Of a stretch of 26,155 bases of DNA, positions 610 through 18,649 are shown piece by piece. Within the stretch, counting starts at the first letter, position 1. Each line of letters begins with the position of its first letter. The translations under genes and the position numbers were made by a program. The DNA lies in the IMG/VR virus record IMGVR_UViG_3300030110_002073, positions 1-26,155 of that record; one strand, given 5' to 3'. The notes under the pieces are model-generated. The model was not told the origin of the DNA, did not search any database, and saw only the letters and a list, made by a program, of their open reading frames with translations. The DNA is from a virus.

Positions 610-3600
610 TTAATCTATTTTTTTGTAATCTAACTTTTTATATATGTTTCTACTGTTTTTTGTTTTTCTTGCTGGAGGTTTGTTAGTATCATTTTCTTTA
701 TCTAAACCTATTTCCCAGTCTTGCCAACCACCAAGTAAAGCTAATCTCTCCCATAATTCTATATCTTGTGTTGTAGCTTTAGAAACATTAGTAGCTTTTT
801 TAACAGCTCTATCTAATGGTATATTTGTTAAAGCAGATATAACATTACCACCTGCTAAAAACGCTGGGTTATCTAAACTCCAACCACCGTTTATCATTTC
901 TTCTTTATCCCATTGATACGATCTAGCTGCTTGATTTATTCTTGAAAGCTTAGATGATATTGGAGGTGACAACCTAGATAATTCATAAGCTACTTTGTCT
1001 AACTTAGGTCTATCTTTTTCTAACTCTCTTTGTATACGCATGATCGCGTTTTTACCAACAGAAACTAAAGCACCACCAATACCTAAACCTCTTAGCAAAG
1101 AATCACTCATACCATTTGCTATACTAACATACTTTTCTTGTTTCTCTTTATCTTCAGGCTCTTCATCACCAAACGCAAACGCAAACAATGCTTGTTGTAA
1201 AGCGTTGAATATTAAGTTTTGAACAAAACCGTAATATAATATTTTAGATATATTAGTTTTAGTATCGCCTCTACCTGCTCTTAAATCTGAAGCAGCTTTT
1301 TTTATTAATCTAGCGTACTGCATTGGTGTGTTACCAAATGCTAATATTATTCTACCAAGCGGTCCAGCTTGTTGCATTGATATTCTATCAGGTCTACTTG
1401 ACTGCTGATTTTCTTCAGCTAGTTCTCTCCAATCATTAAAAGCTTTCTTTTCAGCAGCAGCTTTATCCATGCCGTCTTTTTCATACGTCTTAATCCTGTT
1501 TCTATAAAGCGTAGCTCCACCAGAAGCAATAGCAAAACTATCTGCTATTTGTGTAGGTATAAAACCAAGTTCTAATAATCTATTTATAACACCTTGCACG
1601 CCACCTTTTTTAGCCATATCAGCAATATCAGCTTCATTAACATTCATTCGTAAACCAGCTCTACGTTCTTTTAAAAAGTCAGAGTTTATTAATTTCATAA
1701 AGTCTGCCCAATATTGTTTTTGATTTGCAAAAGCTTTTGATGCGGCTAACGGATTGTTGTCGCTAAAGTTTATAAAGTTTATAGATGATATTGTTTGTAG
1801 TAATGCAGATCTAGTGTTAAAGAACATTATAGTACCAATACTACCAGTTAGCCAGTCAGTAAACTTCCCAGTTATAGTATCACCTGCAAAGTTACGGTTT
1901 CTACCTGTTTTCATACGTTGAAGCATATTTTCTAGTGCTTCTCTGTATGGTTTACCATACGCAGCTTCTAATTTATTTAAATTCTTTTCAGAGAATATTA
2001 CATCTACGTTCTGCTGCCATAGCTCTAAATACTTAGATCTTTTAGTTGTATTTAACCCTTGTAATAAATCTGTAGTGATACTACCTGCTGGCCACCCAAA
2101 CCTAGGTTTAGCATAACCATCTCCTTTATTTATTTCTATAAGTTGATCTGCAAATACTTTTAAATCAGTATTACCGTTTACATAATCAGTTAAGTCTTTT
2201 AAATCTGCATTGCTAATACCAGGAACTTCCATGTTTTGTTGATTCCATATATAAACTCTTACAGCTTGTTCTCTAGTGTATGGTTCACCTGGAACTTTCT
2301 TACGTAGATTTTTAGGCACAAGGTTTAATTCTTTTTTAAGAGCTTTGTAATCGTTCATTAAAGCAAGTCTTGACTTTGATATGTTTTGCATTGCTCTTGC
2401 ATAAGGATCTAGTAAATGTAATTTATACCAAGCCATTTGAGCATCACCAAGTTTACCTTTAGCTAGTGTCGCGTATAATAAACCTGTAAAGTCTTCTGCT
2501 GATGGTGGAATAAAGAAATTTAATTTACCTTTACCAGCACCTGCTACTTGAGCTTTAACTCTTTTGTATTCTTTTTCTGAAGCAATACCTGTTTTAGCTT
2601 CTATAATATCGTTAAAGTCTTTATCTAAATCAACAGACTTACTAAACTTAACATATGCTTGTCTAACTTTTGACTTAACATCTAATACACTTAACGCATC
2701 TTGTACTGCTTTAACATTTTTATAAGCATCATCTGCAAAATAAAAATCATTATAACCTTCAGCAGCTTTATTTACAACCCAACTTGCTTTAGCTTCAGGA
2801 GTTCCATCTGATAATCCTATGATATTTTTAACCGGTATATCAAGTCCAATACTTTTTAGAAACTTATGTATTGGTTCTGCAGCAGCCATTGGTCTAGCAG
2901 TTAATATAAAAACATTTTGATTGCCAAACTTTTTATTACGAGCTATAGCTTTTTCAAACATAGGACCTTTAGATCCTTTAGTAACAACATCAAATTCACT
3001 AAAATCAAACTCAGCGCCTTGCTCTATTAAATCTACAGATTCTTTAGCAAATTGCGCAGCTGTTAATTTACCTTTAGTACCATCTGGTAATGTATATAAA
3101 ACATTAGATTTAGTTGTAGCCAATGTGTCATCAAAATCCCATATGCTAATACCTTTAACAGTAGCATCAGCATTTTTAGCGTTATCAAAAGCCCTATCTA
3201 ATCTTCCTAAATTTTGTATTTGTTGTTGATTACTATCTGTTTTACTTAACTTCATACCAACTGGTTGAAGTTTATTATTAGATTGAGCTGCTTTTTTCTT
3301 AGAATTAATTATAGCTTGAGTTGAAGGTTGACCACTTGAGTCAACATTAAATTTTTCTTGAAAGCTTATATTATCTAATCCTATTATAGAGCTAGGGTTT
3401 ATACCTCCATCTATCATGACAACTATATCGTTAAAGTATCTTTGCCACCAACTACCATCAACAACACTCCAGTCGTCTGGCATTCTTCTTTGTAAACTAT
3501 AACCAGCAGCTGTTCTTGCGTTTCTAAGTTTATCGTCCATAGCTTTATCTAAAGCTATAACTTTATAATTATCAATTACTAAATCATAAGCCGCATTAAA

Positions 3601-6600
3601 ATCAGAGTTAGATAAAGAAGCATCTAACAAATACAAGTAAGCCATAGTAGCAGGCATAGCGTGCTCGTACTCATATCTAGATCCTGTTATTACATTAGAA
3701 TATCCTATTATTTGAGCGCCTAATTTATGCCAATGACTAGTATCATTAGCTACAAAACCTAAATAAGTAGCTATAGCAGAAGCAGATTTTTTATCTTTTT
3801 TTATTTCAGAATTTATTCTTTCCCATAATGCTCTATGTATTTTACCAACTTTATTATTGAAATTTTCTATTTTATTTATATTATTTTTTATAGTTTGAGG
3901 ATTTTTTAATAAAGTTTTATAAGAATTTCTTAGTGAATATATATCTTCGTCTTTAACACCTGGTATAGACTTACCATACTTAATCGTATTATCATTTTTT
4001 AAATCTTTTATTCTTTTAACAAACTCTTTCCATAAAGGATTTTTAGAACTCATTAATAAATTTTTAGAACTACTAGTAAGAACTGTTCCAACACCTGGTC
4101 CAAAAAACATTGCTTTAGGACCTAATACAAATACATTGTCTTTGAAAGCTTGTATAAATGTTTCTATATCTTCAATAGATTTTATCTTAAACGTAGGAGG
4201 TAAACCATATGTTTTTAATATTTTATCTTTACCGTTGTAATCTAAATTAAATGTATCACTTACGTTTATAATGTTATTAACATTTGTTTCACTAAACATT
4301 AACTTAGGTTTACCTTTAGCTATTTCAGCTTTAGCTCTTGCCTTAACATCTGGCTTAACATCTGTACTAGCATCGACTACTTCTCTAGCAACTACATTAC
4401 CTAGGTTTCTAGCATACATTTCTAGTAAACCTTTCATTGTTTGAGCTTCTGCAGATCTTGGTACAAAATTAGGGTCTACTTTACCATCTTTAATACCGAC
4501 AGCTTCTAAAAATGTATTACGATTATAAGGTTTTAAAGTCCACTGAAAGTTGTTACCAACTCTTTTACCTTTAGTGTAAAATATTTTTAATAGATTTCTT
4601 GGTATACCAGTTGGTTCACCACCTTTACGTATAACTCTACCGCCTGGTCCTTCAACTTCTACAACTTCTCTATTAGCTTCTGTAAATAAATTTTTAAGTG
4701 TTGGTTCGTTTTTAAGTATCCAGCGTTGTATATCAGAGATATTATCACCTTTACGTAAGTTATCTTTTGCGTTTGAAATACGGCTTACAGGGATATTAAA
4801 AAATTCAGCCACTGCTTCATATGGTGCAATGTCTTTAAGCTCCTTATATGTCACCGTGGTTACGTCTACGTCTTTGTCTGCAATGTTTTTTCTAACCTCT
4901 TCTGTTGCTTTACGTTTAATATCCATTATTCTAAATGGATCAATACGTCTTTTTTCAGGTTTTACAGGTGTTTCTATAACCGCAACTTCTTCTGCTACAA
5001 CTCCTGTTGCTTCTGTTACATCAGCTGTAAACTCTTCACCAAGCACTCTTCTCGATGCTTCAATTGTTCGTGCTGGTAAAAACTTATTTATATAAGCAGC
5101 GAGTGGAACATTTGATTCAGGTTTATATTCTTGTATTAAATCTAATATACCTCTCGTGCCAGTTTCTATTTCATCAGTTAATAATTGTCTATCAAAACCT
5201 GGAGCTTGACTTCTACGCTCTACAAGCTTACTTGTAATAGGTTTGAACTCTTGTATAATATCAAATGCAGCTTCAGTACCTCTAGTATCATATAAGGCTT
5301 GTACTCTGTCTGAAGCAGCTTCAGTTCTAGATTCTTTTACAATAGCTTCATCTGTTTTAGCTTTAGCTTCTGTTGTTACAGTTTCAGCTTGAATATCTAG
5401 ATCAGCAAAGTTTCCATCTTTTATAGACTTACTAAGACTTTGTATAAAGCTTACTACATCGGGAGCTCCCTGAAAAAATAAAGAGTTTTCTTTACCAGTT
5501 AATTTAGAAACAATACTATTTATATTAGCTCCTATAGCTGATACAAAGTTTTGATTGTTTTGTTTTTCTATATCTAATCTAGATACTTCCTCTAAATAAT
5601 TAGTTAATACTTCTTCTGAGCTTTGACCAGTAGTTTGAGCAGATAATCTTCTAGCTGCTGCTTCATTATTTTCTTTTAAATAATCTAATATTTGTGTAGC
5701 TAAATTATTATAGCCAGCTTTATCAATACCCAGGCTTTCCATAAACACTACATGACCAATCTCGTGTATAGGAGTTTTAGTTTTACCGTTGTTTAAAGCA
5801 TTTGTTTGTGAAACTAATACAGTATAATTTTTATTTCCTAAGTTTATAAATGCACCATTAGATTTACCGCTGTTAACATTATCTTTTAAATCATTAAATA
5901 TTTTATCTCCTTTAGTTTGAGATACATTTCCATTTTCAATAGCAGTATCTATATCTTGTCTAGCTATAGTTAATAACTCAGCATTGTTCTCACTAAACTT
6001 GTAATTAATTTTAGCTCCATATTTTTTAGCTAGTTTCTTTGCTGCTTTAGAAGCTTGCTCATTACTTTCTTGAAGTTTATCTATATTATATAACTTCTGA
6101 GCTTCTTTATCTATTTGTTTTTCGTCTGTAATTCCTTTGCTTATTAACTTACCTTTAGCTAATTCTTTATATTTATTTTTAATTTTTTTAGATTCTACAG
6201 AAAAAACATTTTGAAAGTCATCTTTAAATTCTTTTCTTTGTTTAGCTAGTTCTGAAAATCTATTTTGATATATGTTTAATAGTTTTGTTTTTTCAGAATT
6301 AGTTATATCGGTTCTTCCTAACAATGACTTAACTTCTAACCTTATGTTTTCTTGAGCAGAGGTAGCAAGATTATATAGTTTAAAACCTTCTGGAGTAAGT
6401 TTGCTAGCTAAATCATTTTCTATTTTGTTTAATATATCTGAATTACTTTCAGTTAAATTATTTATTAAATCAACTCTAGTTTTATATGAGTTAGTTCGTT
6501 TGTCCATACTTTGAATCTCGTTATTAAGTATGGCTATAGCCGACTCATTTTCTCTAAACTTAGACATTGTATTGTAATCTGTCATAGAAGCAAGCGCTGC

Positions 6601-8400
6601 ACCTTTCAATATTGGAACACCACCTAATGTAACACCTAGTAATCCACCTGTGAAACCTGCTTCAGGTACGTTGTCAAATATGTTTTGCATATTCATCTCA
6701 CCTCTTAAAACCTCAATACCATTTTGAAAAAATACTGTACTACCTTCTGCAATAACTTCAGTAGCACTTTGATCTATAAACCTAGGTAATTGTGCTTTAG
6801 TATAATCTTTTGCGCCTTTAAAAAACATTTTAGCACCCTCACCTGTAAGATTACTTTTTGCTGTTCCTAAAATTCTAACTGTATTTAGTGTTCCTAAGGT
6901 AGCTTCAAAACCTCCAAATCCTAAAGCTGTTAATCTTTTTTCTAAATTACCCGTCTCACTACCTCTTTGTTCATCAAGAGTTTCTATGTCATTTATTTTT
7001 TGCCCATAACCACCAGCACCTATTGAAGCAACGCCTACTACATTACCTAGTGCCAATTGAGCAAAAACAGGTATTTGACCTGAAAATGCTTGTAAAGAAT
7101 ATTTTCCAAAATTTGATGGACTTTCAAACGCTTTTTCAAAAGCTACTTGAGGAGCATAATCTTTCTCAAGATCTTCCATTGCGCGCTCTTGAACTTTTCT
7201 AGTATACTCAGCAATCTTTACATACTCAGGACTATATTTTGCAAGTCCTAAACCTACATCTCCAATAATATCAGCACCAGCTCTTACTAAACCAGCCGCT
7301 TGAGCAGCTCCAGTTTTAGTTACTATAGCTCCTAATTGATCTAAAAAATTATAATTTTTTCTTAACCACTCAATATCTAATTTAAATCCTTCTTGTTGAT
7401 CTATTAGATTAGTTAATTTTTTTGAAGCATTATCTACAAAATTATATTTTTCTCTTACTTCGTTAAGATTTTTATTATAAAAACTTAAAAGATCTTTAGT
7501 AATCATTACACCGTTTTCTAGTGTAACTATATTTTTAGATTTCTCTTCAACTTGTTTTTGCAGCGCTTGTATTTCTTGAACAGCAACTGGAGACTCTATT
7601 CCTTCTGATCTTCTTTTATTTACTTCTTCAATATCTTTTTTTAACTTATTTTCTAACTTTAAATACTCTTGAACATCTGGAAGAGTTTTAGGTATCCTAG
7701 TGCTACCATCTGGATTTACAGTAGATATATAAGAATTAATACTTAATAAGTTTTTATAAGCTGCAGATTTTGGTATTTGATCTAAAGTAATATTTATATC
7801 AGAGTTTAGTTCATCTTGCTGATATGTTCCATCAATAAGTCTTTTCTTAACAGTATCTCCAAGTTTAACTCTAGTTTCTTCAGGTAAAGTTTTAATATAG
7901 TTATTACGTTTTTCAGTTGCTAACTCTTGAAACTTATTATTATAAATTATTTTTTTAGCTTCTTCATAAACATCTTGAGATGGAGGATCGGTTTCTCCTT
8001 GTGCTTTTAAACTAACTCTAGCTTGCTCTAATTCGTCTTTATAAGGTTGAGTTGTTCTGCTAAATATACCAGTAAAATCTTTTTCAGTAATAGGTTTAAA
8101 ACTAATTTCTTTAACTTGTTTTTCTATATCAAGTTTTTCTTGATCTGTAATACGAACAGCATTGTCATATTTAGTCTCATCAGTTTCTTCTGGTAACTCC
8201 AAAGAAATACCTTCCAAATTTGAAACCATACTCTCGGATGCTACTTCCGGTTTGGGTACTACAGTCGCATCCACACTTGGAGCACCCTCTATCTTTACTT
8301 CTTCTTCCATTAAAATCGCTTCAGGATTTGTTTGAATAAATAAGTCTACTTGATCATCAGGTATATTATAAACCTGATTATTAGCTTCGTATCTTGGCAT
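610..8400 (-). CDS. Giant multidomain ejection/polyvalent-type virion protein with zincin protease and HAD phosphatase motifs
   Basis: This 2596-residue protein occupies 30% of the window. Residues 1-345 are charged and helical. Residues 355-605 hold Gly/Ala-rich, membrane-tropic segments. A zinc metalloprotease motif HEIGH is at residues 879-883, with a likely third ligand at E929 or E930. Residues 1545-1670 have a His/Glu cluster (H1556, H1558, E1579, H1580) of unknown meaning. A HAD domain at about 1745-1905 has all four motifs: DFDDT (D1755, D1757), T1834 in ILTARP, K1871 or nearby, and D1890-D1891. The C-terminal 600 residues are helical, with hydrophobic stretches near 2186-2212 and 2389-2412. 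Very large phage proteins that combine zincin, HAD and other domains are known as polyvalent proteins and are thought to be injected with DNA. The place after two smaller putative internal virion proteins fits that. Domain motifs are seen directly; virion packaging and ejection are inferred. It could be confused with a giant RNA polymerase, but no polymerase motif was found. Confidence 0.8.
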   Translation of the reverse strand: MPRYEANNQVYNIPDDQVDLFIQTNPEAILMEEEVKIEGAPSVDATVVPKPEVASESMVSNLEGISLELPEETDETKYDNAVRITDQEKLDIEKQVKEISFKPITEKDFTGIFSRTTQPYKDELEQARVSLKAQGETDPPSQDVYEEAKKIIYNNKFQELATEKRNNYIKTLPEETRVKLGDTVKKRLIDGTYQQDELNSDINITLDQIPKSAAYKNLLSINSYISTVNPDGSTRIPKTLPDVQEYLKLENKLKKDIEEVNKRRSEGIESPVAVQEIQALQKQVEEKSKNIVTLENGVMITKDLLSFYNKNLNEVREKYNFVDNASKKLTNLIDQQEGFKLDIEWLRKNYNFLDQLGAIVTKTGAAQAAGLVRAGADIIGDVGLGLAKYSPEYVKIAEYTRKVQERAMEDLEKDYAPQVAFEKAFESPSNFGKYSLQAFSGQIPVFAQLALGNVVGVASIGAGGYGQKINDIETLDEQRGSETGNLEKRLTALGFGGFEATLGTLNTVRILGTAKSNLTGEGAKMFFKGAKDYTKAQLPRFIDQSATEVIAEGSTVFFQNGIEVLRGEMNMQNIFDNVPEAGFTGGLLGVTLGGVPILKGAALASMTDYNTMSKFRENESAIAILNNEIQSMDKRTNSYKTRVDLINNLTESNSDILNKIENDLASKLTPEGFKLYNLATSAQENIRLEVKSLLGRTDITNSEKTKLLNIYQNRFSELAKQRKEFKDDFQNVFSVESKKIKNKYKELAKGKLISKGITDEKQIDKEAQKLYNIDKLQESNEQASKAAKKLAKKYGAKINYKFSENNAELLTIARQDIDTAIENGNVSQTKGDKIFNDLKDNVNSGKSNGAFINLGNKNYTVLVSQTNALNNGKTKTPIHEIGHVVFMESLGIDKAGYNNLATQILDYLKENNEAAARRLSAQTTGQSSEEVLTNYLEEVSRLDIEKQNNQNFVSAIGANINSIVSKLTGKENSLFFQGAPDVVSFIQSLSKSIKDGNFADLDIQAETVTTEAKAKTDEAIVKESRTEAASDRVQALYDTRGTEAAFDIIQEFKPITSKLVERRSQAPGFDRQLLTDEIETGTRGILDLIQEYKPESNVPLAAYINKFLPARTIEASRRVLGEEFTADVTEATGVVAEEVAVIETPVKPEKRRIDPFRIMDIKRKATEEVRKNIADKDVDVTTVTYKELKDIAPYEAVAEFFNIPVSRISNAKDNLRKGDNISDIQRWILKNEPTLKNLFTEANREVVEVEGPGGRVIRKGGEPTGIPRNLLKIFYTKGKRVGNNFQWTLKPYNRNTFLEAVGIKDGKVDPNFVPRSAEAQTMKGLLEMYARNLGNVVAREVVDASTDVKPDVKARAKAEIAKGKPKLMFSETNVNNIINVSDTFNLDYNGKDKILKTYGLPPTFKIKSIEDIETFIQAFKDNVFVLGPKAMFFGPGVGTVLTSSSKNLLMSSKNPLWKEFVKRIKDLKNDNTIKYGKSIPGVKDEDIYSLRNSYKTLLKNPQTIKNNINKIENFNNKVGKIHRALWERINSEIKKDKKSASAIATYLGFVANDTSHWHKLGAQIIGYSNVITGSRYEYEHAMPATMAYLYLLDASLSNSDFNAAYDLVIDNYKVIALDKAMDDKLRNARTAAGYSLQRRMPDDWSVVDGSWWQRYFNDIVVMIDGGINPSSIIGLDNISFQEKFNVDSSGQPSTQAIINSKKKAAQSNNKLQPVGMKLSKTDSNQQQIQNLGRLDRAFDNAKNADATVKGISIWDFDDTLATTKSNVLYTLPDGTKGKLTAAQFAKESVDLIEQGAEFDFSEFDVVTKGSKGPMFEKAIARNKKFGNQNVFILTARPMAAAEPIHKFLKSIGLDIPVKNIIGLSDGTPEAKASWVVNKAAEGYNDFYFADDAYKNVKAVQDALSVLDVKSKVRQAYVKFSKSVDLDKDFNDIIEAKTGIASEKEYKRVKAQVAGAGKGKLNFFIPPSAEDFTGLLYATLAKGKLGDAQMAWYKLHLLDPYARAMQNISKSRLALMNDYKALKKELNLVPKNLRKKVPGEPYTREQAVRVYIWNQQNMEVPGISNADLKDLTDYVNGNTDLKVFADQLIEINKGDGYAKPRFGWPAGSITTDLLQGLNTTKRSKYLELWQQNVDVIFSEKNLNKLEAAYGKPYREALENMLQRMKTGRNRNFAGDTITGKFTDWLTGSIGTIMFFNTRSALLQTISSINFINFSDNNPLAASKAFANQKQYWADFMKLINSDFLKERRAGLRMNVNEADIADMAKKGGVQGVINRLLELGFIPTQIADSFAIASGGATLYRNRIKTYEKDGMDKAAAEKKAFNDWRELAEENQQSSRPDRISMQQAGPLGRIILAFGNTPMQYARLIKKAASDLRAGRGDTKTNISKILYYGFVQNLIFNALQQALFAFAFGDEEPEDKEKQEKYVSIANGMSDSLLRGLGIGGALVSVGKNAIMRIQRELEKDRPKLDKVAYELSRLSPPISSKLSRINQAARSYQWDKEEMINGGWSLDNPAFLAGGNVISALTNIPLDRAVKKATNVSKATTQDIELWERLALLGGWQDWEIGLDKENDTNKPPARKTKNSRNIYKKLDYKKID

Positions 8401-8409
8401 AATTATATT

Positions 8410-10002
8410 TTATTGGTTTTCTATAAATCTTCCGAATGGATCTTCTTCTTTCAAAACAATGTAGTTTCTAGCTTTTTCTCTATCAACTTTATCATAACTA
8501 CCCGATACATTATCTATAAATCTTTCTACATCACTTGGGTTATCTATGTCTATAATAGTTTCTGCTGCTTTACCTATACCAACTTCAAAAGTAACTACAA
8601 ATTTTCTATTACCAGTGCCTTGTACTGGAGTAACATCAGTAATTCTTTTATCATCATAAGCTCTACCTACTAAATAGTTTATTGTATTAGTAGTAATACC
8701 ATCATATATTTCTTTTGAAAGATCAGCTCCAGGTTCTTTAGCGCTACTACCTTTGTCAGCTTTACGAGTTTTTACAGACTCGGTATATGTTTCATATATA
8801 GGCACACCATTTTCTTCACCTATTTGTTTTGAAATTATTTTAGATTTTGGAAACTCTCCTTTCATAACTTGTTTTTCTAAGTTATCCATTATGTTGTTCA
8901 TTAGAAAATCTCTTTTTGCTTGCTCAGAAGAATCAACCCAATTTTTAGTTTTTACAGTAGACCAACCTAGTCCTCCTAATTCAACATCCTTATTTACATA
9001 ATTTATTTGTTGATCTATATCTCCAGCTAGTATACCACTAATAAAGCCACTTACTTCAGCTCTTAAAACAGTATTGTTTTCTATTTTATCAAGATCTATA
9101 ATGTTTTTTGTAGTAATTATTTCATTGTTGCCTTCTACTTTACTTTCAATTCTAGTTTCTTTTACCATGCCTGGTAACACATTTCCATCTTTAAGTATAC
9201 CAGCGGTTTCCATAACCTTGATACCATTAATATTATCAAGAGTATCTATAATCATAGTCCCATCCCATTTACTTAAATCTCTTTTCCAATTTAAAGTAAC
9301 ATTACCATTTTCATCAAACTCAATATCATCTTTATTAAGCATACCTCCTTCTACAGCTAGTTTAAAAGTTTCGCTGTTTTTGTTTAGCTTAGTAGTTAGT
9401 GATAATTCATTATTTTTAAAAGATCTTTGTACGTCTAATCCTTTAAGCTGTTTATTTTGTAAATTATTTACAGCAATAAAGTTTGTAAATTTTTCAACAC
9501 CTTGTCCAGCAAAATCATTTTTAATACCTAGCTGAAAGCCTTGTAAATTTTCAGCTAAATCTAAATTAACTTCGATGTCAGCTAATTTATTTACAGTATT
9601 GTTTTGCCATATTTCGTATTCATTTATACGTTTTCTATATTCTTTTGCAACAGCTGGATCTACTCCACCCATGTTTAAAGCAGCTTTCATTTGTATAACA
9701 CCACCTCTACCATCTTCACCTTCAAGGTAATCAGTTGCTTGTTTTCTTATATCAACAACAATAGCATTGTCTAAATCATTTTCATTTATAGCTTTGTTTA
9801 AATTTTCTTGATACTCTAGCGCAGTAAGATTTATAAGCTTATTATAAGCATCTCTTTGCTTAGCAGCTTGAGCTTCAGCTATTTGTTTGTTTTTATAATA
9901 AGTATCTACACTACCAGCTATCATAGCACCTGCTCTTGTAATGCCTTCTGCCCATATTTCAGCCGATCTGTCTACTATTATTCTTGGGTTTCTATAACTC
10001 AT
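8410..10002 (-). CDS. Putative internal virion (ejection) protein, 530 aa
   Basis: I do not recognise a named family. The first 130 residues are helical and Ala/Gln/Lys-rich, including a mildly hydrophobic stretch near residues 22-32 (TRAGAMIAGSV). The middle and C-terminal parts are mixed helix and strand, with several Asp/Glu/Asn-rich loops. There is no signal peptide and no enzyme motif that I can see. The ATG at 10002 follows an A/T-rich leader and lies 22 bases after the 270-residue gene; the stop is nine bases before the giant gene's start. Its place between a coiled-coil internal protein and the giant ejection-type protein suggests a virion internal protein that leaves the capsid with DNA, comparable in position to T7 gp14-gp15-gp16 or P22 gp7-gp20-gp16. 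That role rests on gene order only. Confidence 0.6.
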   Translation of the reverse strand: MSYRNPRIIVDRSAEIWAEGITRAGAMIAGSVDTYYKNKQIAEAQAAKQRDAYNKLINLTALEYQENLNKAINENDLDNAIVVDIRKQATDYLEGEDGRGGVIQMKAALNMGGVDPAVAKEYRKRINEYEIWQNNTVNKLADIEVNLDLAENLQGFQLGIKNDFAGQGVEKFTNFIAVNNLQNKQLKGLDVQRSFKNNELSLTTKLNKNSETFKLAVEGGMLNKDDIEFDENGNVTLNWKRDLSKWDGTMIIDTLDNINGIKVMETAGILKDGNVLPGMVKETRIESKVEGNNEIITTKNIIDLDKIENNTVLRAEVSGFISGILAGDIDQQINYVNKDVELGGLGWSTVKTKNWVDSSEQAKRDFLMNNIMDNLEKQVMKGEFPKSKIISKQIGEENGVPIYETYTESVKTRKADKGSSAKEPGADLSKEIYDGITTNTINYLVGRAYDDKRITDVTPVQGTGNRKFVVTFEVGIGKAAETIIDIDNPSDVERFIDNVSGSYDKVDREKARNYIVLKEEDPFGRFIENQ

Positions 10003-10024: not shown

Positions 10025-10837
10025 CTAAACCAAATCCGATGGCATTGTGTAACCTATAGATGACGCGCCACTTGGTTGAGGAGCAGTTGAAGTTGTATTA
10101 AATGCGCCGCTTGCTAAACCAGAACCTACTATACTTGCTACATTACCAATTGCACCGGTTATTGCAGCTGCTTGTGCTTGATTAGCAGAAGCTTGTTGAG
10201 CTTGTGCTTGACTGATTTGACCAGACACCCTATCAAGATCTGCATTAATTCTATTTTCTTGAACTTGAAACTCAAATTGTTTACCAGCAGCTTCAGCTGT
10301 TTGAAGTCTTTTTGCTTCAGCCATTTTAAGCTGCATAAGCTGTTGCTCGCCTTGAGCTCTAATTTTTTCATTTGCAGCTTCTTGTTGTTCTATATTTGCT
10401 GCAACTTGTTTCTTACTAGATAAAGCAGCTTGAGCAAGCGCAGTAGCACCACCAGCACTAGCACCTGTAGCTCTAAGAGTATCTAATGTATTTGCTAAAG
10501 CAATATCACTCTGCTCCATTTGTATTTCTGCTGCTTGAGTTGCAACACCCATTTTTTCAAACGGGTTACTTAACATACCACTTAGATCAGTTACGTTTTC
10601 ATAAGGATTTACTATTTCTTGTCTTTCTGAAAGTATTTGATTTAGCTGAGCTTCTTTTCTTCTTTTTTCTTTCTCAGCTTTTCTAGCGGCTCTTTTAGCT
10701 TTACTAGCTCCAAATAATCCACCAATTAAATTTACACCAGCAGACACAGCGGCTACAGCTAAAGCTGATGCATTAGTTAAATATGGTATTTCTGGTCCAT
10801 ATACTATGTTGTTTAATATTTCTAATAAGTATTCCAT
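10025..10837 (-). CDS. Internal virion / pilot-type protein with hydrophobic ends and coiled coil, 270 aa
   Basis: This protein has a hydrophobic, Gly/Ala-rich segment at about residues 24-44, then a strongly basic stretch (about 45-62). A long Gln/Ala/Glu-rich coiled coil runs from roughly 100 to 225, and a second Gly/Ala hydrophobic segment lies at 226-245. The tail is Ser/Pro/Thr-rich. This layout, with a small membrane-tropic segment, basic patch and Ala/Gln coiled coil, is typical of podovirus internal virion or DNA-ejection proteins (T7 gp14-like in style; no sequence homology is claimed). The gene starts three bases after the stop of the upstream gene and is followed by the 530-residue putative internal protein. 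The likely role is helping build the trans-envelope channel or guiding the genome out. The function is inferred from composition and position. Confidence 0.65.
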   Translation of the reverse strand: MEYLLEILNNIVYGPEIPYLTNASALAVAAVSAGVNLIGGLFGASKAKRAARKAEKEKRRKEAQLNQILSERQEIVNPYENVTDLSGMLSNPFEKMGVATQAAEIQMEQSDIALANTLDTLRATGASAGGATALAQAALSSKKQVAANIEQQEAANEKIRAQGEQQLMQLKMAEAKRLQTAEAAGKQFEFQVQENRINADLDRVSGQISQAQAQQASANQAQAAAITGAIGNVASIVGSGLASGAFNTTSTAPQPSGASSIGYTMPSDLV

Positions 10838-10840
10838 AAT

Positions 10841-12328
10841 TTAATATGATGATTCTGTATAATTAGATGATACTGCGAATAATTCTTTTAATCCACCTGG
10901 ATCTGTAGTGTCATCTGTTGATACCGTTACTGTAGCAAAGAAACCTTTTATACCTGTCATTTGATCACCAAATCTAACCTCACCTTGTGCTGCGGTGCTG
11001 TTATTAACTAGGTTAGCTACATATTTATTTTCTTTTCTATTGAAACCAGCTCTCTGTCTTGTGTGACCTGGGTTGCTAGTTCCAAATACTGATTCATAAT
11101 CTGCTGGTACAACAGCTTGATTATTAGTTGGGTTTATTATATATTCACCTTCAACATAGCTATATACAATAGTTGTTGAATCACTTGTGCTACCATAGAA
11201 CCCGTTTAATTCATCTTCACCTGTAACACCTGATTGAAAGTTTGTAACTTCCCAACCATTACTACCTTCGTAATTAATAGTTTTAAAGTTTTTAACAAGA
11301 CTTACATTAGGGTTAAATATAAATGTAATTGTTGTTGGATAGTCTGCTCCATAAAATCTACCACGATTAACATCAGGAGAATAATGAAGATACAACTGAC
11401 TGTTGTACATTGTGTACATATTATTCTTCAGACTAAATACATGTGTAGGTTCAAAATCAAAAAAACTAACCCAGCCTCTTACTGTTTCATCGTAAGCTAA
11501 TGTATTGTAACCACCTTCTGTAGCAGCTGACTGTGTAGATACTACATATTGTTTATTGTGAGCGTCCCAACCACTAACAACTTTACCATCGCTTGTAGTA
11601 TTCATAGCTACAAACTCATCTCTAAAGTAATCATACATACCATATTCAGATATTTCTGTAATACCATCACGTGATAATCTTAATACAGCATTTCTATTTC
11701 TATCAGTAAAGTATTTTCTATATCCATAAACAGCAAAGCTTTGTGGATCCGTGCTAATACCATACTCACCAGCGTAAGGAACTATTTGACCTATAACTAA
11801 GTTTAATTGACTAACAGGTGTTGCTGTGCCTTCAGCAGTGTAAATCGCGTCTTTGTCAATCAACGCTCTGTTAACTTTGTTTTCTTGGAATATAATTAAG
11901 TTAGTATTTTCAGCATAAAGCTTTTGTATTGAACCTCTAGAAGGATCTACAGACCTAGTAATATCTTCACCTACAGAAAACACATTTGTATCATTAATAC
12001 CTGTTCTAGAGTTATATATGCCAGAGTATATAAGAGTGTTAAATAAATTAGATGAGTTAGGTTCTTCTTCAACTAAGTAAGCTCTTACACCGTAATCTAC
12101 ACTTGTATTATTAAATCCACCTCTTATTCTAGCTTCTTCAATAGCCCAAACACTACTATTATAATTTGATGAATCATCACTAAAAGCAGGATAACCACCT
12201 AAACTTACTGGTATACCAAACGAACCGTTATAAACTGGTGCGTGTGTAGAAACTCCATGCGTACGGGTCTTACTAAGCTTCTTTAAAATAAAAGAGTTAA
12301 AATACTTTATTTCTATTACTGCTCCCAT
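10841..12328 (-). CDS. Tail/neck stabilization-associated structural protein, 495 aa
   Basis: A soluble, beta-rich protein with no signal peptide. Many Tyr, Asn, Thr and Gly residues occur in short repeating strand-turn units (for example SRTGINDTNVFSVGEDITRS near residues 107-126), which suggests a beta-propeller or similar fold. I recognise the general pattern (YFNSF near the start, a block with VNRALIDKDAIYTAEG, and GYRKYFTDRNRNAVLRLSRDG) as one that accompanies gp10-like stabilization proteins in podovirus-like phages of Bacteroidetes, though I cannot confirm this by search. It begins 22 bases downstream of the 1289-residue gene. It probably forms part of the tail hub or closure complex below the neck. 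Residues from about 370 onward include Asn/Thr-rich loops that may be exposed. Confidence is high that it is a virion protein, moderate on the exact position. Confidence 0.7.
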   Translation of the reverse strand: MGAVIEIKYFNSFILKKLSKTRTHGVSTHAPVYNGSFGIPVSLGGYPAFSDDSSNYNSSVWAIEEARIRGGFNNTSVDYGVRAYLVEEEPNSSNLFNTLIYSGIYNSRTGINDTNVFSVGEDITRSVDPSRGSIQKLYAENTNLIIFQENKVNRALIDKDAIYTAEGTATPVSQLNLVIGQIVPYAGEYGISTDPQSFAVYGYRKYFTDRNRNAVLRLSRDGITEISEYGMYDYFRDEFVAMNTTSDGKVVSGWDAHNKQYVVSTQSAATEGGYNTLAYDETVRGWVSFFDFEPTHVFSLKNNMYTMYNSQLYLHYSPDVNRGRFYGADYPTTITFIFNPNVSLVKNFKTINYEGSNGWEVTNFQSGVTGEDELNGFYGSTSDSTTIVYSYVEGEYIINPTNNQAVVPADYESVFGTSNPGHTRQRAGFNRKENKYVANLVNNSTAAQGEVRFGDQMTGIKGFFATVTVSTDDTTDPGGLKELFAVSSNYTESSY

Positions 12329-12350: not shown

Positions 12351-15300
12351 TTAAATTACTGTATATAACACGCTTTCTGCGCTATAATTTACATCTGCAC
12401 CTTGAGCTGATATACTACTATATCCTTGAGTTCGAAGACATGATTTAAATAATGCTATTGCTGTACCTTGTAAATTAGTATCATAATACAAACTACCACA
12501 AGTGTTTTGATTTTGTACAACTTCATTAAATGTTATAACAACATTTGAATTACCATTATCGGTTAAATCATTCCAAGATCCATCATAAACATAAAACCCA
12601 GGGTGATCTCCATCGTTTATTTGCAACACAACAGCTGGAAATATGTATTCAACCTCAACACCACCTACAGTTCTAAATGCTGAAAAATCACGTTGAAAAA
12701 CATTTACTACAGTTGTTCCATATTGTAATGTTATAATTACTTCATCTTGTTCACCAGTACCACCAGCATCTGTACATCTAACTTTAAGGTTATAAGTATC
12801 AGGTGGTAATGTACTACCTCTTAAATTATTAACAGAACATGTAGATGTATCTGTTGAAGAATCGTAGTTAAATTCTAAACCAAAATAAGGATAGTTTAAT
12901 GGATCACTAGGTCTAGGCCCAACGTTTTCACCAGATGAACTTGTTTGACTACCTATTATCCAGTCTATATCTCTACCTTCATTTAAGTTGTCAGGATTAT
13001 AAGCACCATTTATAGCTTTCATTTCGGTTACAGGATTAGCATCTGTTATACTAGCAACCACTGTATATGGAGCGCTACCACTTCCACTAGCTGGAGCTGT
13101 CATTGTTGGCGCTACATTTATTAATAAAGCTTCTCTAGATATATTTGTTGTAGAATCATTTACACCAACTTGTAAAGTAAAGTCAAATTCTCTAACTTCT
13201 GGAGCGCTACCATAAAATACATTTTCTAAAAATGCTGTAGTTGTTTGTATATTGTAACCAGTTGTATTATCACCAACTAAAGTAAAGTAAGCACTAGATA
13301 CATCTAATAAACCTTCACCAGCTACTTTTAAAGGCGTTGGTGATTGTCTATTAAAACAAGAAACTATTTTTAATGCACTAGTAATATCACCTGTAGGTAT
13401 AGTTGCACTAAAGTTATCTATTAAAAAGAAATTACTTGCTAATATGTTTTCACTTGAATTTAAAGCTTCTGTAAAAGTAGATGTATCAAAACTATTTATA
13501 TTAGCTGCAGAATTATTTGAGTTTAAAATAATAGTATTTAAATCTGATATTAAACCACTTGTACTAGTTTCATAATATATATCTAGTCTAGATTCAACAG
13601 GCTCTGTTTCTAATATAGTTAAATTATTAACAATATCATATGTAGAAAAACCTGTGTTTTCTGTGTTTATAACGCCAAATTGTTCAGCCGCAACATTACT
13701 AGTAACAAGCTCACCAATAAATGGATCTGATTCAGCTTTAAAAAACGCGTGATAAGGATAAGAGTCATCAGTTACATCAGGTAAAGAAAGAGTAAACATA
13801 TCATTTAAAGGCTCTATATTACTTGTTGTAAAATCTCTTCGGTCTGGATAATATTGATCACTACCAATATTAGAATAAGCTATAGTATTATTTTCTACTC
13901 TACCAAATAATTTAATAGAACTTCTAAACGTTCTATCTTGCGGCCCAACTTCTGTTAAATCTCTAGGTACTTTATTTATATTATCATTTATTAAAGTTAT
14001 AAAAGAGTTCTCTTGATTAGCAGGAGGTGCAGGTGTATAATCAACATCACCTTTTAAAGCCCCAGCAGTATATACATTATAATATTCTTGCTCTTGTTGT
14101 TTAACAACTATTTTAAATGAATACCAACCAAGTGGATTATAATCATCACTTGTTGTATCTCCGTTGTATAAACCTGGCCAACCTGTAGCTGAGTTTGCTT
14201 CAGCTGGTCCTATAACACTATTAAAAGACATTTTAAGTGAATTACCAGGCCATGTTATTACGTTTACATCTGTATCTATATATGGAGAATATATACTATC
14301 TCCTTTAAAAGTATCTGAACCAACAGTAATAGTATCTTCATTTTCACTTAATATAACGGAAGAAGTTCTACCATATCTGTCAGATAATACTACACCGACT
14401 TGATAATTTCTATTTGTTTTTAAAGAGTGACTAGGATATTCTATTATACTAGTTGTTTGTTCTATTTCTTCTTCAAGTGTAAAATTATAAGTTGTATCTG
14501 TTGTTTGTGTAACTGCATTTGTAACCGTTATTGTAGGTGATAAACCACCTGTTGTAGAAGTTACAATTGTATCTGTACCTGATATTGTTCCACCTGTCAT
14601 TACACTGCCAACAGCAATAGTTCCTGTTGCTAGTTTTATATTAATAACAGTGTCACCAGTTGGACGATCACTAACGTATCCAGTACCATTTTTTAAATCA
14701 AAAGCACTTTTTTCAGTAGCTATCACATTGTAGTCTAAAAATGCTGGTGGAGTGTGTTTATCTTGAAAATTACCATAAACAACTCTATTGCTAATTATTT
14801 CTTGTGATAAAGCTTTTACTGGTATTTTATCATAAACTCTTATTAAATCTTTTTGAGGTAATGTTTTAAAAGGTAGCTGACCTGAATATGTATAAGGTAA
14901 AATATAATTGCTACTAGCTAATGACGCTATGTCGTCTGCAGGTATGGTTTCTACAACTTTTAAAGATGTTCCATCAGATTCTTTATATATAATCTCAACA
15001 TTTTTAATCTTAAAGTCATCAACAAAATTATTACCAGTACTAGGTAGTGGTATGCTTAATTTTATTTCATTAACTTTGTTTTCCATAAACTCTACAATTG
15101 TAGAATTAAATGTTAGTTGTTGATCTCCTACACCGTCTGTAGCTGCGGTACCTGATTGGCTTTGATTTAAGAAATAACCATCTTGCTTAGGTATAAAACA
15201 TGCTTGAGTAAATGGAGCTATTAAAGAGTATTCACCATCATCAAACTCAAATCTATAGCTAAACCTAACAAATTTATCCTCTAAAAAATCATCATCACCA

Positions 15301-16220
15301 GCATAGTTTGGATCATAATAAGGATTAGCATTAAAAACTAATTCGTCACCAGCTGTTAAAGTTTGAGACGTTGTTAAAGTTACAGACGATGAACCACCTG
15401 CGGTAACCGGATTATCAGTATCGTCTATTGTACCACTAGCAGATACAACTCCAACTGTCATTCCAGCTTGTGGAACATTTGGTGAAGCAGCTGCTTGCGC
15501 ATTAGGATAAAAAGGTATGTTTAAAGTATTTAAAGCAAAAACAGTACCAGTGCTTGTAGCGTTAACGATAGCAGTTCCACCGCCAGGTAGAAACTTACTG
15601 GTTACATCTTTCATTGAACACTGGTAATCACCTAATGCGCTAGGTGATGCAACCTTAGCTGTTTCATAAAGCTCTATTGCTTGAAATGGATTATATTTTG
15701 CTACAGATATTTGATCTTCATTTGTATAATAAGAAGAGTTAGCAGCCGCTTTAGTTATGTTTATTTTTCTTGGCTGATTTCTATTATCAGTCCAAAACAA
15801 CATATCTTCTAATAAATTAACTGCTATTATAGGAAAGTGTGTTGAAAAGTTTAAAAAAGCACCTTCAACTAATTTTGTTTTAACTTCAGTCTTTACATTG
15901 TATCTCCATATAGAGTGTCTTAATAAACCACTAACCGGACCTTTTACCCAATTAGTTGTAAAATTATCTGTTAAAAACACGTATATATTATTGTTAGTTT
16001 CATCAACAAAATAACCTATAGATGTCATATTGTTTTGGAAAAGATTAAACTCAGTTAACAACTTGTTACCTAAAACATTAGTTAACGCGCCTACATCGTC
16101 ACCTTCAGATCTACTTATCTGAGCGTTTTGAGCATCTCTATATTCACCTGATGGAAGCAACCTAGCATCTAGGTCTTTATTCATCTTAGACTTTAGAAAA
16201 GCATTTTTAACTTCAGCCAT
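12351..16220 (-). CDS. P22 gp10-like packaged-DNA stabilization / tail hub protein with extra beta modules, 1289 aa
   Basis: The N-terminus (KMNKDLDARLLPSGEYRDAQ at residues 12-31, then ISRSEGDDVGALTNVLGN) matches the pattern I know from the gp10-like stabilization proteins of P22-type and crAss-like phages, which form a beta-propeller-like hub closing the neck after packaging. The body is beta-rich to about residue 870. Two Gly/Thr/Val-rich inserts interrupt it: residues about 215-298 (with GMTVG...TLTAGDELVF) and 518-582 (with TGTIAVGSVMTGGTISGTD). Residues about 1035-1170 look like an immunoglobulin- or cadherin-like domain (DTYNLKVRCTDAGGTGEQDE), followed by a cysteine-containing C-terminal region. 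It is unusually long for the family, so the extra modules are probably surface displays or receptor-contact domains. It starts two bases after the preceding stop. The core assignment is fairly secure; the roles of the inserts are inferred. Confidence 0.8.
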   Translation of the reverse strand: MAEVKNAFLKSKMNKDLDARLLPSGEYRDAQNAQISRSEGDDVGALTNVLGNKLLTEFNLFQNNMTSIGYFVDETNNNIYVFLTDNFTTNWVKGPVSGLLRHSIWRYNVKTEVKTKLVEGAFLNFSTHFPIIAVNLLEDMLFWTDNRNQPRKINITKAAANSSYYTNEDQISVAKYNPFQAIELYETAKVASPSALGDYQCSMKDVTSKFLPGGGTAIVNATSTGTVFALNTLNIPFYPNAQAAASPNVPQAGMTVGVVSASGTIDDTDNPVTAGGSSSVTLTTSQTLTAGDELVFNANPYYDPNYAGDDDFLEDKFVRFSYRFEFDDGEYSLIAPFTQACFIPKQDGYFLNQSQSGTAATDGVGDQQLTFNSTIVEFMENKVNEIKLSIPLPSTGNNFVDDFKIKNVEIIYKESDGTSLKVVETIPADDIASLASSNYILPYTYSGQLPFKTLPQKDLIRVYDKIPVKALSQEIISNRVVYGNFQDKHTPPAFLDYNVIATEKSAFDLKNGTGYVSDRPTGDTVINIKLATGTIAVGSVMTGGTISGTDTIVTSTTGGLSPTITVTNAVTQTTDTTYNFTLEEEIEQTTSIIEYPSHSLKTNRNYQVGVVLSDRYGRTSSVILSENEDTITVGSDTFKGDSIYSPYIDTDVNVITWPGNSLKMSFNSVIGPAEANSATGWPGLYNGDTTSDDYNPLGWYSFKIVVKQQEQEYYNVYTAGALKGDVDYTPAPPANQENSFITLINDNINKVPRDLTEVGPQDRTFRSSIKLFGRVENNTIAYSNIGSDQYYPDRRDFTTSNIEPLNDMFTLSLPDVTDDSYPYHAFFKAESDPFIGELVTSNVAAEQFGVINTENTGFSTYDIVNNLTILETEPVESRLDIYYETSTSGLISDLNTIILNSNNSAANINSFDTSTFTEALNSSENILASNFFLIDNFSATIPTGDITSALKIVSCFNRQSPTPLKVAGEGLLDVSSAYFTLVGDNTTGYNIQTTTAFLENVFYGSAPEVREFDFTLQVGVNDSTTNISREALLINVAPTMTAPASGSGSAPYTVVASITDANPVTEMKAINGAYNPDNLNEGRDIDWIIGSQTSSSGENVGPRPSDPLNYPYFGLEFNYDSSTDTSTCSVNNLRGSTLPPDTYNLKVRCTDAGGTGEQDEVIITLQYGTTVVNVFQRDFSAFRTVGGVEVEYIFPAVVLQINDGDHPGFYVYDGSWNDLTDNGNSNVVITFNEVVQNQNTCGSLYYDTNLQGTAIALFKSCLRTQGYSSISAQGADVNYSAESVLYTVI

Positions 16221-17443: not shown

Positions 17444-18649
17444 TTAACTTTTTGAATTTATTTCTTCAGTTTGAACTGCTTGTGCAGCTGCTTGAACAAT
17501 TTGTGGATCTCTTATTACAACTCCAGCATAAGCTAATATTCTCATTATAACTTCGTTTTGCTCTGACGGGTGAAGTTCAAATTGTGTTGATGCTGAAGCA
17601 TTATAAAGATATTGATTTAATCCGCCAACAGTAAAACCCCAAACAACACTAGCGGGTTTTCTTATATAAGAAACCTTAATATCTGAAGCTGTAGTTATAC
17701 TTGTCGGGTATACATAGATATGTGGTATACCGGTATCATTACCAGAAGTTCCTTGAGTAGCTCTTTCGTATATGTATATAGGATAATCAGTTGTTGGTTT
17801 AGTTAGTCGAGACATGTTAATGTGAAGAAAATCGTCTCTATCAACTCTTTGAAGCTCTAATTCGTCTTTATATATTACAGTACCTATTCTATGTAGGTCT
17901 GAAGGTGGTAAAAAATAAAGCTGTGAGTTTATTAAGTTTACTGTTGCTGTAGCGTTTGCGTTACCAGTTAAAACAGTTATTGTGTCGTTCAATGAATAAG
18001 CTGAACCGCCGTTATTTACAGTGACACTAGATATAACACCATTACTATCAGATGTTAAAGTTATTGTTCCATCTACATTTCCAGCATTAACAGTTAGCAC
18101 TTCTCCATTTGAATAACCAGTTCCTGGAGTATTTATGCTAATTGATACTATTGCGCCAGTAGAAGAGTTTACTGAGTTTATGTTTACTGTTAAACCTACG
18201 CCAGAACCACCTGTAACACCTACGTTGGACGCAGCAGAGTAACCAGTTCCAGCAGCACTTAAAGTAAATGTTGGATTTGTTATATTTGTATCTACAGTTA
18301 GACCGGTTCCAGTACCACCTGAAGTTGATACATTATTAGCAGCTGTATAACCAGTACCACCACTAGTTAAGGTTACACCATTTACTACACCAACTGGTAC
18401 CACTGTAGTATTACCAATTGTTTTAAATATAGAAATACAATTATCTATATTTTTTCTACGGTTAGCGTACTCGCTTTCCGTTTGCGGCACACGTAACTGC
18501 TGGTTTAAATCTTCAAAATAATTTTCAAATACATCTAGCTGTACTTGTGTAGCTAGTTTGTTAAACTCATCTGGTGTTATATAACCTCTCTGTTCCTTAT
18601 TAAGAATAGACAGTACCGTTGTGTAAACAGTATTTACGTTTATTGCCAT
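17444..18649 (-). CDS. Head-tail adaptor protein interrupted by four GTGYS-type repeats, 401 aa
   Basis: Residues 1-80 are helical (NTVYTTVLSILNKEQRGYIT, then DEFNKLATQVQLDVFENYFE), and residues 243-401 continue with a mixed fold (LYFLPPSDLHRIGTVIYKDE, KVSYIRKPASVVWGF, then a helical C-terminus with FELHPSEQNEVIMRILAYAG). Together these look like one connector-type protein placed where podoviruses keep head-tail adaptors. Between them, residues about 88-242 consist of four imperfect repeats of about 39 residues, each with a GTGYS-like core (the last reads GSAYS) followed by a valine/threonine strand pair. The repeats look like a beta-solenoid or sandwich array grafted into a loop. The gene follows a 57-base gap holding a hairpin. 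The adaptor role rests on position and pattern; repeat function is unknown, with surface binding plausible. Confidence 0.72.
   Translation of the reverse strand: MAINVNTVYTTVLSILNKEQRGYITPDEFNKLATQVQLDVFENYFEDLNQQLRVPQTESEYANRRKNIDNCISIFKTIGNTTVVPVGVVNGVTLTSGGTGYTAANNVSTSGGTGTGLTVDTNITNPTFTLSAAGTGYSAASNVGVTGGSGVGLTVNINSVNSSTGAIVSISINTPGTGYSNGEVLTVNAGNVDGTITLTSDSNGVISSVTVNNGGSAYSLNDTITVLTGNANATATVNLINSQLYFLPPSDLHRIGTVIYKDELELQRVDRDDFLHINMSRLTKPTTDYPIYIYERATQGTSGNDTGIPHIYVYPTSITTASDIKVSYIRKPASVVWGFTVGGLNQYLYNASASTQFELHPSEQNEVIMRILAYAGVVIRDPQIVQAAAQAVQTEEINSKS
17924..18388 (-). repeat. Four diverged protein-coding repeats of about 37-40 codons (GTGYS repeats)
   Basis: Within the adaptor gene, four units can be laid out by their cores: SGGTGYTAANNVSTSGGTGT (unit 1, residues 88-124), AAGTGYSAASNVGVTGGSGV (unit 2, 125-164), TPGTGYSNGEVLTV (unit 3, 165-203) and NGGSAYSLNDTITV (unit 4, 204-242). 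Units 1 and 2 are closest to each other. At the DNA level the units have diverged, so this is not a fresh duplication. The array ends just before the adaptor fold resumes at LYFLPPSDL. Confidence 0.85.

Follow-up and report, generated by a model that had tools for sequence, protein, structure and literature searches.

The 2,596-residue protein described here is, in the reading that we favor with moderate confidence, the largest of three ejection proteins (270, 530, and 2,596 aa) encoded by a crAss-related marine phage. On this reading it is polyvalent and modular, and its sigma-like domain may attach to the RNA polymerase of the host. Its domain identities, modularity, synteny, and homology to virion proteins come from sequence and structure comparison. 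The source is an uncultured marine phage, kin to phages of Flavobacteriia, and the window (the whole stretch of DNA analyzed) is the entire IMG/VR record IMGVR_UViG_3300030110_002073 (26,155 nt, typed "linear"), which is probably a fragment of a genome.

The large genes of the window lie on the minus strand. The transcription order is terminase, portal, 398-aa protein, major capsid protein, and 272-aa protein, followed by structural proteins, a two-part muzzle, and the 270-, 530-, and 2,596-aa proteins. Because a Pfam scan detected the muzzle C-terminal domain PF25729, a crassvirus-type tail is indicated. By terminase and capsid, the nearest annotated genomes are the Manatee Spring genome, the Flavobacterium elemo phages, Maribacter phage Panino, and Cellulophaga phages phi38:1 and phi18:3; gut crassviruses are not among the nearest. 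The muzzle is apparently split into two ORFs (10841-12328 and 12351-16220), one of which matches positions 1-184 of the phrog_14478 profile and the other positions 918-1221; L001 has a similar pair of ORFs, and a single long ORF takes its place in elemo and the Manatee Spring genome. A 401-aa protein (17444-18649) has a virion-protein N terminus (phrog_14543) and a Gly/Thr-rich repeat insert that matches many baseplate and fibre families. The features discussed below are as follows.

610..8400, minus strand: giant ORF, 2,596 aa, assigned as polyvalent ejection protein (ATG start, no internal stop)
691..2628, minus strand: C-terminal all-helical polyvalent-protein domain, residues 1925-2570 (model, BFVD matches)
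2626..3198, minus strand: HAD-superfamily phosphatase cassette with four motifs, residues 1735-1925 (motifs, phrog_415, DUF2608)
3241..4308, minus strand: conserved "core" domain (...HWHKLGAQ...EYEHAMPAT...WWQRYF...), residues 1365-1720 (conservation)
5041..5268, minus strand: sigma-70 region-2-like domain, residues ~1045-1120 (hhalign, Pfam, plasmid searches, sliding windows)
5566..6033, minus strand: zincin-like metallopeptidase, residues 790-945, with three strands, HExxH helix, and Glu helix (AF2 topology, conservation, elemo gp21)
5611..5613, minus strand: E930, predicted third zinc ligand (invariant, 50/50)
5752..5766, minus strand: HEIGH, residues 879-883, predicted zinc ligands and catalytic Glu (sequence, conservation)
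6301..7953, minus strand: N-terminal segment, residues 150-700, common to flavophage giant virion proteins (profile matches, hydropathy peaks)
8410..10002, minus strand: 530-aa protein, middle of the predicted ejection trio (gene order)
10025..10837, minus strand: 270-aa gp14-like small membrane/ejection protein (family kept in 140/146 loci)
10841..12328, minus strand: crAss muzzle C-terminal domain protein, context marker (PF25729, 3.9e-8)

By position and size, the muzzle, gp14-like protein, 530-aa protein, and giant stand in a T7-like order next to the tail genes. The 270-aa family matches phi38:1 gp99 (2.9e-13), Panino (2.9e-7), phi18:3 gp120 (1.7e-6), and elemo gp23 (6.1e-6); gp99 itself matches T7_gp14 (PF24072) over its length at an E of 0.0059, which is below the cut-off. 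The N-terminal segment of the giant matches phi38:1 gp101 (6e-13), elemo gp21 (1.6e-12), Panino (7.8e-8), and phi18:3 gp123 (1.2e-6); these matches are heavily composition-biased, with reversed and shuffled controls at 0.047 or worse. In the phi18:3 record gp120, gp121, and gp123 are annotated from experimental MS/MS. The first-pass annotation had proposed the giant as the ejected effector of the phage and would have withdrawn this had relatives' proteins been absent from virions; one relative's protein is annotated as found there. From the gene order and the N-terminal homology to flavophage giant virion proteins, one of them with MS/MS annotation, we infer ejection. Scans against Pfam, PHROGs, and NCBIfam gave no family of gp16-type peptidoglycan hydrolases.

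The single uninterrupted frame at 610-8400, described earlier with no strand given, was confirmed (2,596 aa, minus strand). Of the proposed membrane-tropic region at residues 355-605, the position stood: the strongest 19-residue hydropathy peaks are at 443-461 (1.63) and 586-604 (1.53), but these values are only moderate. The hydrophobic stretches reported in the last 500 residues were not recovered, as no 19-residue window exceeds 1.4 there. The suspicion that the long spacers hide further domains proved sound, since the sigma-70-region-2-like domain, the conserved core, and the C-terminal domain all lie in them. Scans of the whole protein against Pfam, PHROGs, and NCBIfam gave no convincing match to the zincin, the core, or the C domain, and HMM searches against the PDB, with the whole protein and per domain, returned nothing for HAD, core, or C and weak, unrelated matches for the zincin.

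Among 50,697 phage records the full-length protein has no relative, except for the elemo phages at residues 430-583. IMG/VR yielded 67 relatives via the core domain and at least 522 loci with the C domain. Presence was counted in 139 ORFs that carry the C domain and are open at the 5′ end, three of which are pieces shorter than 700 aa: HExxH occurs in 126, HAD in 88, and the core in 82, and the sigma-like profile, searched against 139 sequences, matches 79. HAD, core, and sigma-like segments occur among relatives in every one of the eight possible combinations. A C-domain tree of 106 rows needs at least 8 state changes for HAD, 24 for core, 23 for sigma, and 7 for HExxH; these counts are blind to gain versus loss, and any divergent copies that were missed would make the core and sigma numbers too high. 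Since some relatives are without HAD, sigma, or an intact HExxH, no single activity is indispensable, and the protein is more modular than first described.

The sigma-like segment is new here and is the part that a specialist would not expect. Foldseek matches of a model of residues 690-1720 were individually insignificant, yet rich in sigma factors (6omf_F, probability 0.77), and this recurrence drew attention to residues 1045-1120. Comparison of the family with eight sigma factors using hhalign gave an E of 7.4e-5 in one direction and 1.1e-5 in the other (20 column shuffles, ≥0.24; reversed alignment, 0.75); the former alignment is colinear with sigma regions 2.1-2.3. The window-like subset alone reached 5.6e-5 (best of 50 shuffles, 0.02) and the divergent subset 9.4e-4; bacterial sigmas only gave 1.6e-4. 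When 59 sliding windows were compared with sigma factors, this segment was the best (2.1e-4), followed by its neighbor (0.018), with all others at 0.03 or above. In six-frame searches of four sigma-bearing plasmids, the sigma-like profile found one match each in three (E of 0.0015-0.005), inside the plasmid's sigma gene each time, and none in the fourth. Pfam Sigma70_r2 matches inside the giant frame of L059 (2,372 aa) at 9.9e-6, with 21 bits against a cut-off of 24. When 63 members were scanned singly, the best E of any Pfam family was that of Sigma70_r2 (3.3e-4, in four members); DUF2963 reached 0.007, in six. Sigma region 3/4, including the promoter-binding HTH, was not found (residues 1135-1365 versus sigma factors, E ≥ 0.22), and for this reason we do not call the segment a sigma factor.

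These comparisons make homology of the segment to sigma-70 region 2 likely. The signal could reflect merely a common helical fold, and the rival that survives best, although we consider it somewhat unlikely, takes the match for a generic helical hairpin and the segment for a structural linker unconnected with transcription. The similarity is remote (about 60 aligned residues, 11% identity), region 3/4 is missing, and the window's own sequence has no match to Pfam Sigma70_r2; against this stand the colinearity in two divergent halves of the family, the 50 shuffles that reach 0.02 at best, the single good sliding window, the restriction of plasmid matches to sigma genes, the L059 match, and the recurrent sigma structures. 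A separate Sigma70_r2 match lies outside the giant protein in all ten near-genome-length relatives (62-71 kb; including L154), as a free-standing frame of 250-274 aa in nine, and passes the cut-off in eight. Seven isolate or reference records contain neither a separate Sigma70_r2 nor a sigma-like segment, the second search being without a positive control. A search of the relatives for T7-type RNA polymerase was uninformative, since neither it nor its control gave a match. Returning to the sigma reading, we tentatively suggest that in marine crAss-related phages an injected sigma-like module within one polyvalent chain might grip host RNA polymerase at entry, as a virion-borne sigma mimic priming the host polymerase for the phage's own sigma. 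If true, this start of early transcription would be unlike a packaged polymerase (N4, crassviruses) or Alt-type modification (T4).

The HEIGH noticed near residue 880 is at 879-883. HExxH in the open-5′-end relatives compares with 0 of 100 composition-shuffled sequences; HEIGH and the HAD motifs are far beyond chance. Across 50 aligned zincin regions (4 of 54 candidate rows were left out, including L035, which has no HExxH), E880, H883, and E930 are each conserved in 50/50 and H879 in 49/50; mean column identity is 16%, and the ligands are nearly the sole invariant columns. The spacing from H to Glu is 47-75 residues. An AF2 model of residues 690-1720 (pLDDT 80.6) places strands at 797-803, 849-853, and 858-864, the HExxH helix at 876-890, and the E930 helix at 928-941; the modeled topology is that of polyvalent zincins. 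By hhalign the family matches the zincin of elemo gp21, a structural protein of a cultured phage, at 9.5e-6, and Peptidase_M78 matches one family member (3.8e-5). Anthrax lethal factor, a zincin relative named by Iyer et al. (PMC5512222), accounts for 4 of the top 21 Foldseek matches of the model, at an E of 0.99 or worse, which is suggestive only. The earlier reading was to be dropped for want of a structural match to either the zincin or the HAD region; for the zincin there is one, though only by ligands, topology, and weak hits.

Variants occur at the metal site. EELFH or EELSH replaces HExxH in L086, L087, L093, L094, L106, L078, and L002, where the first zinc ligand is lost or changed and the site is possibly inactive or altered. 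L104 has QEVGH at or near the zincin site, and L119 has HEMVGH at residue 1011, an HExxxH variant of the sort described for some polyvalent zincins (PMC5512222).

Two further rivals concern the zincin, and we hold each to be improbable. In the first, it is a virion-maturation protease acting in assembly, and the remainder of the chain is an internal structural core whose enzyme domains are undelivered. The zincin is indeed the most constant enzyme part, and for group 1 jumbo phages a zincin has been proposed to act in maturation (PMC7824862), but assembly offers no obvious task for the HAD and sigma-like domains, which are swapped as cassettes, while the gp14-like neighbor and the N-terminal homology indicate ejection. 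In the second, the zincin cleaves the giant itself at [FYLIM]S[KE] peptides, which recur where the core, HAD, and C units begin. Iyer et al. (PMC5512222) proposed that zincins process polyvalent proteins, and the peptide stands at 50-55% of unit starts versus 14-25% of random windows, with FSK occurring 250 times versus 97 expected; this count is inflated, however, because unit starts are homologous columns, and the peptide is equally frequent without an intact HExxH (6/12, 6/7, and 3/5). Cutting at FS[KE] peptides was rejected as a candidate on the ground that the enriched motif is not tied to intact HExxH. In the window protein, [FYLIM]S[KE] peptides lie at residues 1369, 1718, and 1919 (window about 4294, 3247, and 2644), at the starts of three unrelated units, two- to fourfold enriched over random windows.

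We return to the giant as an ejected polyvalent protein. Its four-motif HAD domain is complete, as first noted, comprising D1755-F-D1757-D-T1759, T1834 (LTAR), K1871, and D1890-D1891 within residues 1735-1925, and 30 homologues all keep these motifs (DxDxT, T, K, DD) unchanged. DUF2608 matches 29 of these 30 members (best 8.6e-6) and the Pfam HAD model 6 (best 0.015), the window row itself falling below the cut-offs in both cases. The domain also matches phrog_415, annotated polynucleotide kinase, at 9.2e-6; it is the name of this family alone that suggests an action on nucleic-acid ends. Because about a third of relatives are without HAD, with clean flanks in the cases examined (e.g., L006, L008), the domain cannot be essential to the protein and is an optional cassette. 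A CHASE5 match at 1730-1774 (E = 0.008) is below the cut-off and sits in the HAD lead-in, and derivation of the cassette from the crAss polynucleotide kinase gene gp61 was rejected for want of a match.

No core domain was confirmed in 84,980 bacterial and archaeal genomes, and neither core nor C domain was found in any isolate by sequence. An HNH-type nuclease, suggested by eye for the core (EYEHAMP...NYK), had no Pfam support. The C domain is modeled as all-helical (pLDDT 73) and gives 40 matches in BFVD at E ≤ 1e-3, the nearest being close uncharacterised viral proteins; they include "Large polyvalent protein" (4e-6 to 8e-5), ART-PolyVal, and the elemoC structural protein (1.1e-4). Foldseek against the PDB gave no significant match for the zincin, sigma, or C domain (best E of 0.47 and 0.61). 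Matches to DUF885 in four C-domain members (0.0014) are sporadic. Together with the multidomain layout and the zincin topology, the resemblance of the modeled C domain to annotated large polyvalent proteins supports the class proposed earlier, for which these BFVD matches are the firmest evidence.

Like the polyvalent proteins of Iyer, Burroughs, Anand, de Souza, and Aravind (2017; PMC5512222), the giant is a long chain of several unrelated enzyme or effector domains, with a zincin that combines a three-strand sheet with HExxH and Glu helices, a C-terminal helical domain common in structure with annotated members, and delivery expected at entry. It differs in that the Pfam LPD search recommended by the first-pass annotation gave no LPD model at threshold, and the words sigma and phosphatase each occur 0 times in that text. 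Flavobacterium phage elemo gp21 (YP_010108907.1, a 3,694-aa "structural protein") is similar in gene position, N-terminal third, and zincin, and the C-terminal region of the elemoC protein matches the window C domain structurally; gp21 is longer, and no HAD, sigma-like segment, or core/C sequence match was found in it. The phi18:3 gp123 and phi38:1 gp101 proteins are syntenic giants that follow gp14-like and ~500-aa proteins and share N-terminal homology, to which the likeness of gp123 is limited; they have neither HExxH nor HAD and are shorter (1,935 and 1,691 aa). The small-middle-large order is that of T7 gp14/gp15/gp16, with the small protein gp14-like in phi38:1; the peptidoglycan hydrolase of T7 gp16 is not recognised in the window giant, and the payload domains of the giant are not known from T7.

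Equivalence to the RNA-polymerase-associated cargo protein gp47 of PhicrAss001 (262 kDa) we rate as very unlikely and reject: gp47 has the same place after gp45 and gp46 behind the muzzle of a crassvirus-type tail, falls in the same size range, is present in virions (PMC10172136), and likewise has an HExxH, but hhalign gave an E of 0.36 against the C region and 0.02 against the zincin region, there is no profile match, the DFDxD motif was not found in the window protein, and the HExxH is at the opposite end. That motif in gp47 (L069 8120-15145, annotated RNA-polymerase subunit) is HEAFH at residue 2157, near the C terminus, and possibly marks an independent zincin.

For ejection, catalysis, RNA polymerase binding, and targets, we infer the following scheme. 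The virion would carry the giant protein until infection, when the N-terminal segment of the protein and the two smaller proteins would help to build a channel through the envelope, and the rest of the chain would be threaded into the cytoplasm before the DNA, to act as a chain of separate tools. The zincin might cut a host protein or the giant chain itself, and the HAD cassette might dephosphorylate a small substrate or a nucleic-acid end. The sigma-region-2-like segment may dock on the beta-prime clamp of host RNA polymerase, which would help to divert the polymerase to the phage at a time when the phage-encoded sigma factor has yet to be made. The C-terminal helical domain would be a chassis common to polyvalent proteins. 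For a large clade of marine phages that has no cultured member (the C domain is present in at least 522 viral contigs), the giant thereby becomes a concrete candidate entry effector whose parts are exchangeable; if its sigma-like module does bind polymerase, an early seizure of host transcription without a packaged polymerase would become testable with a fragment of ~100 residues.
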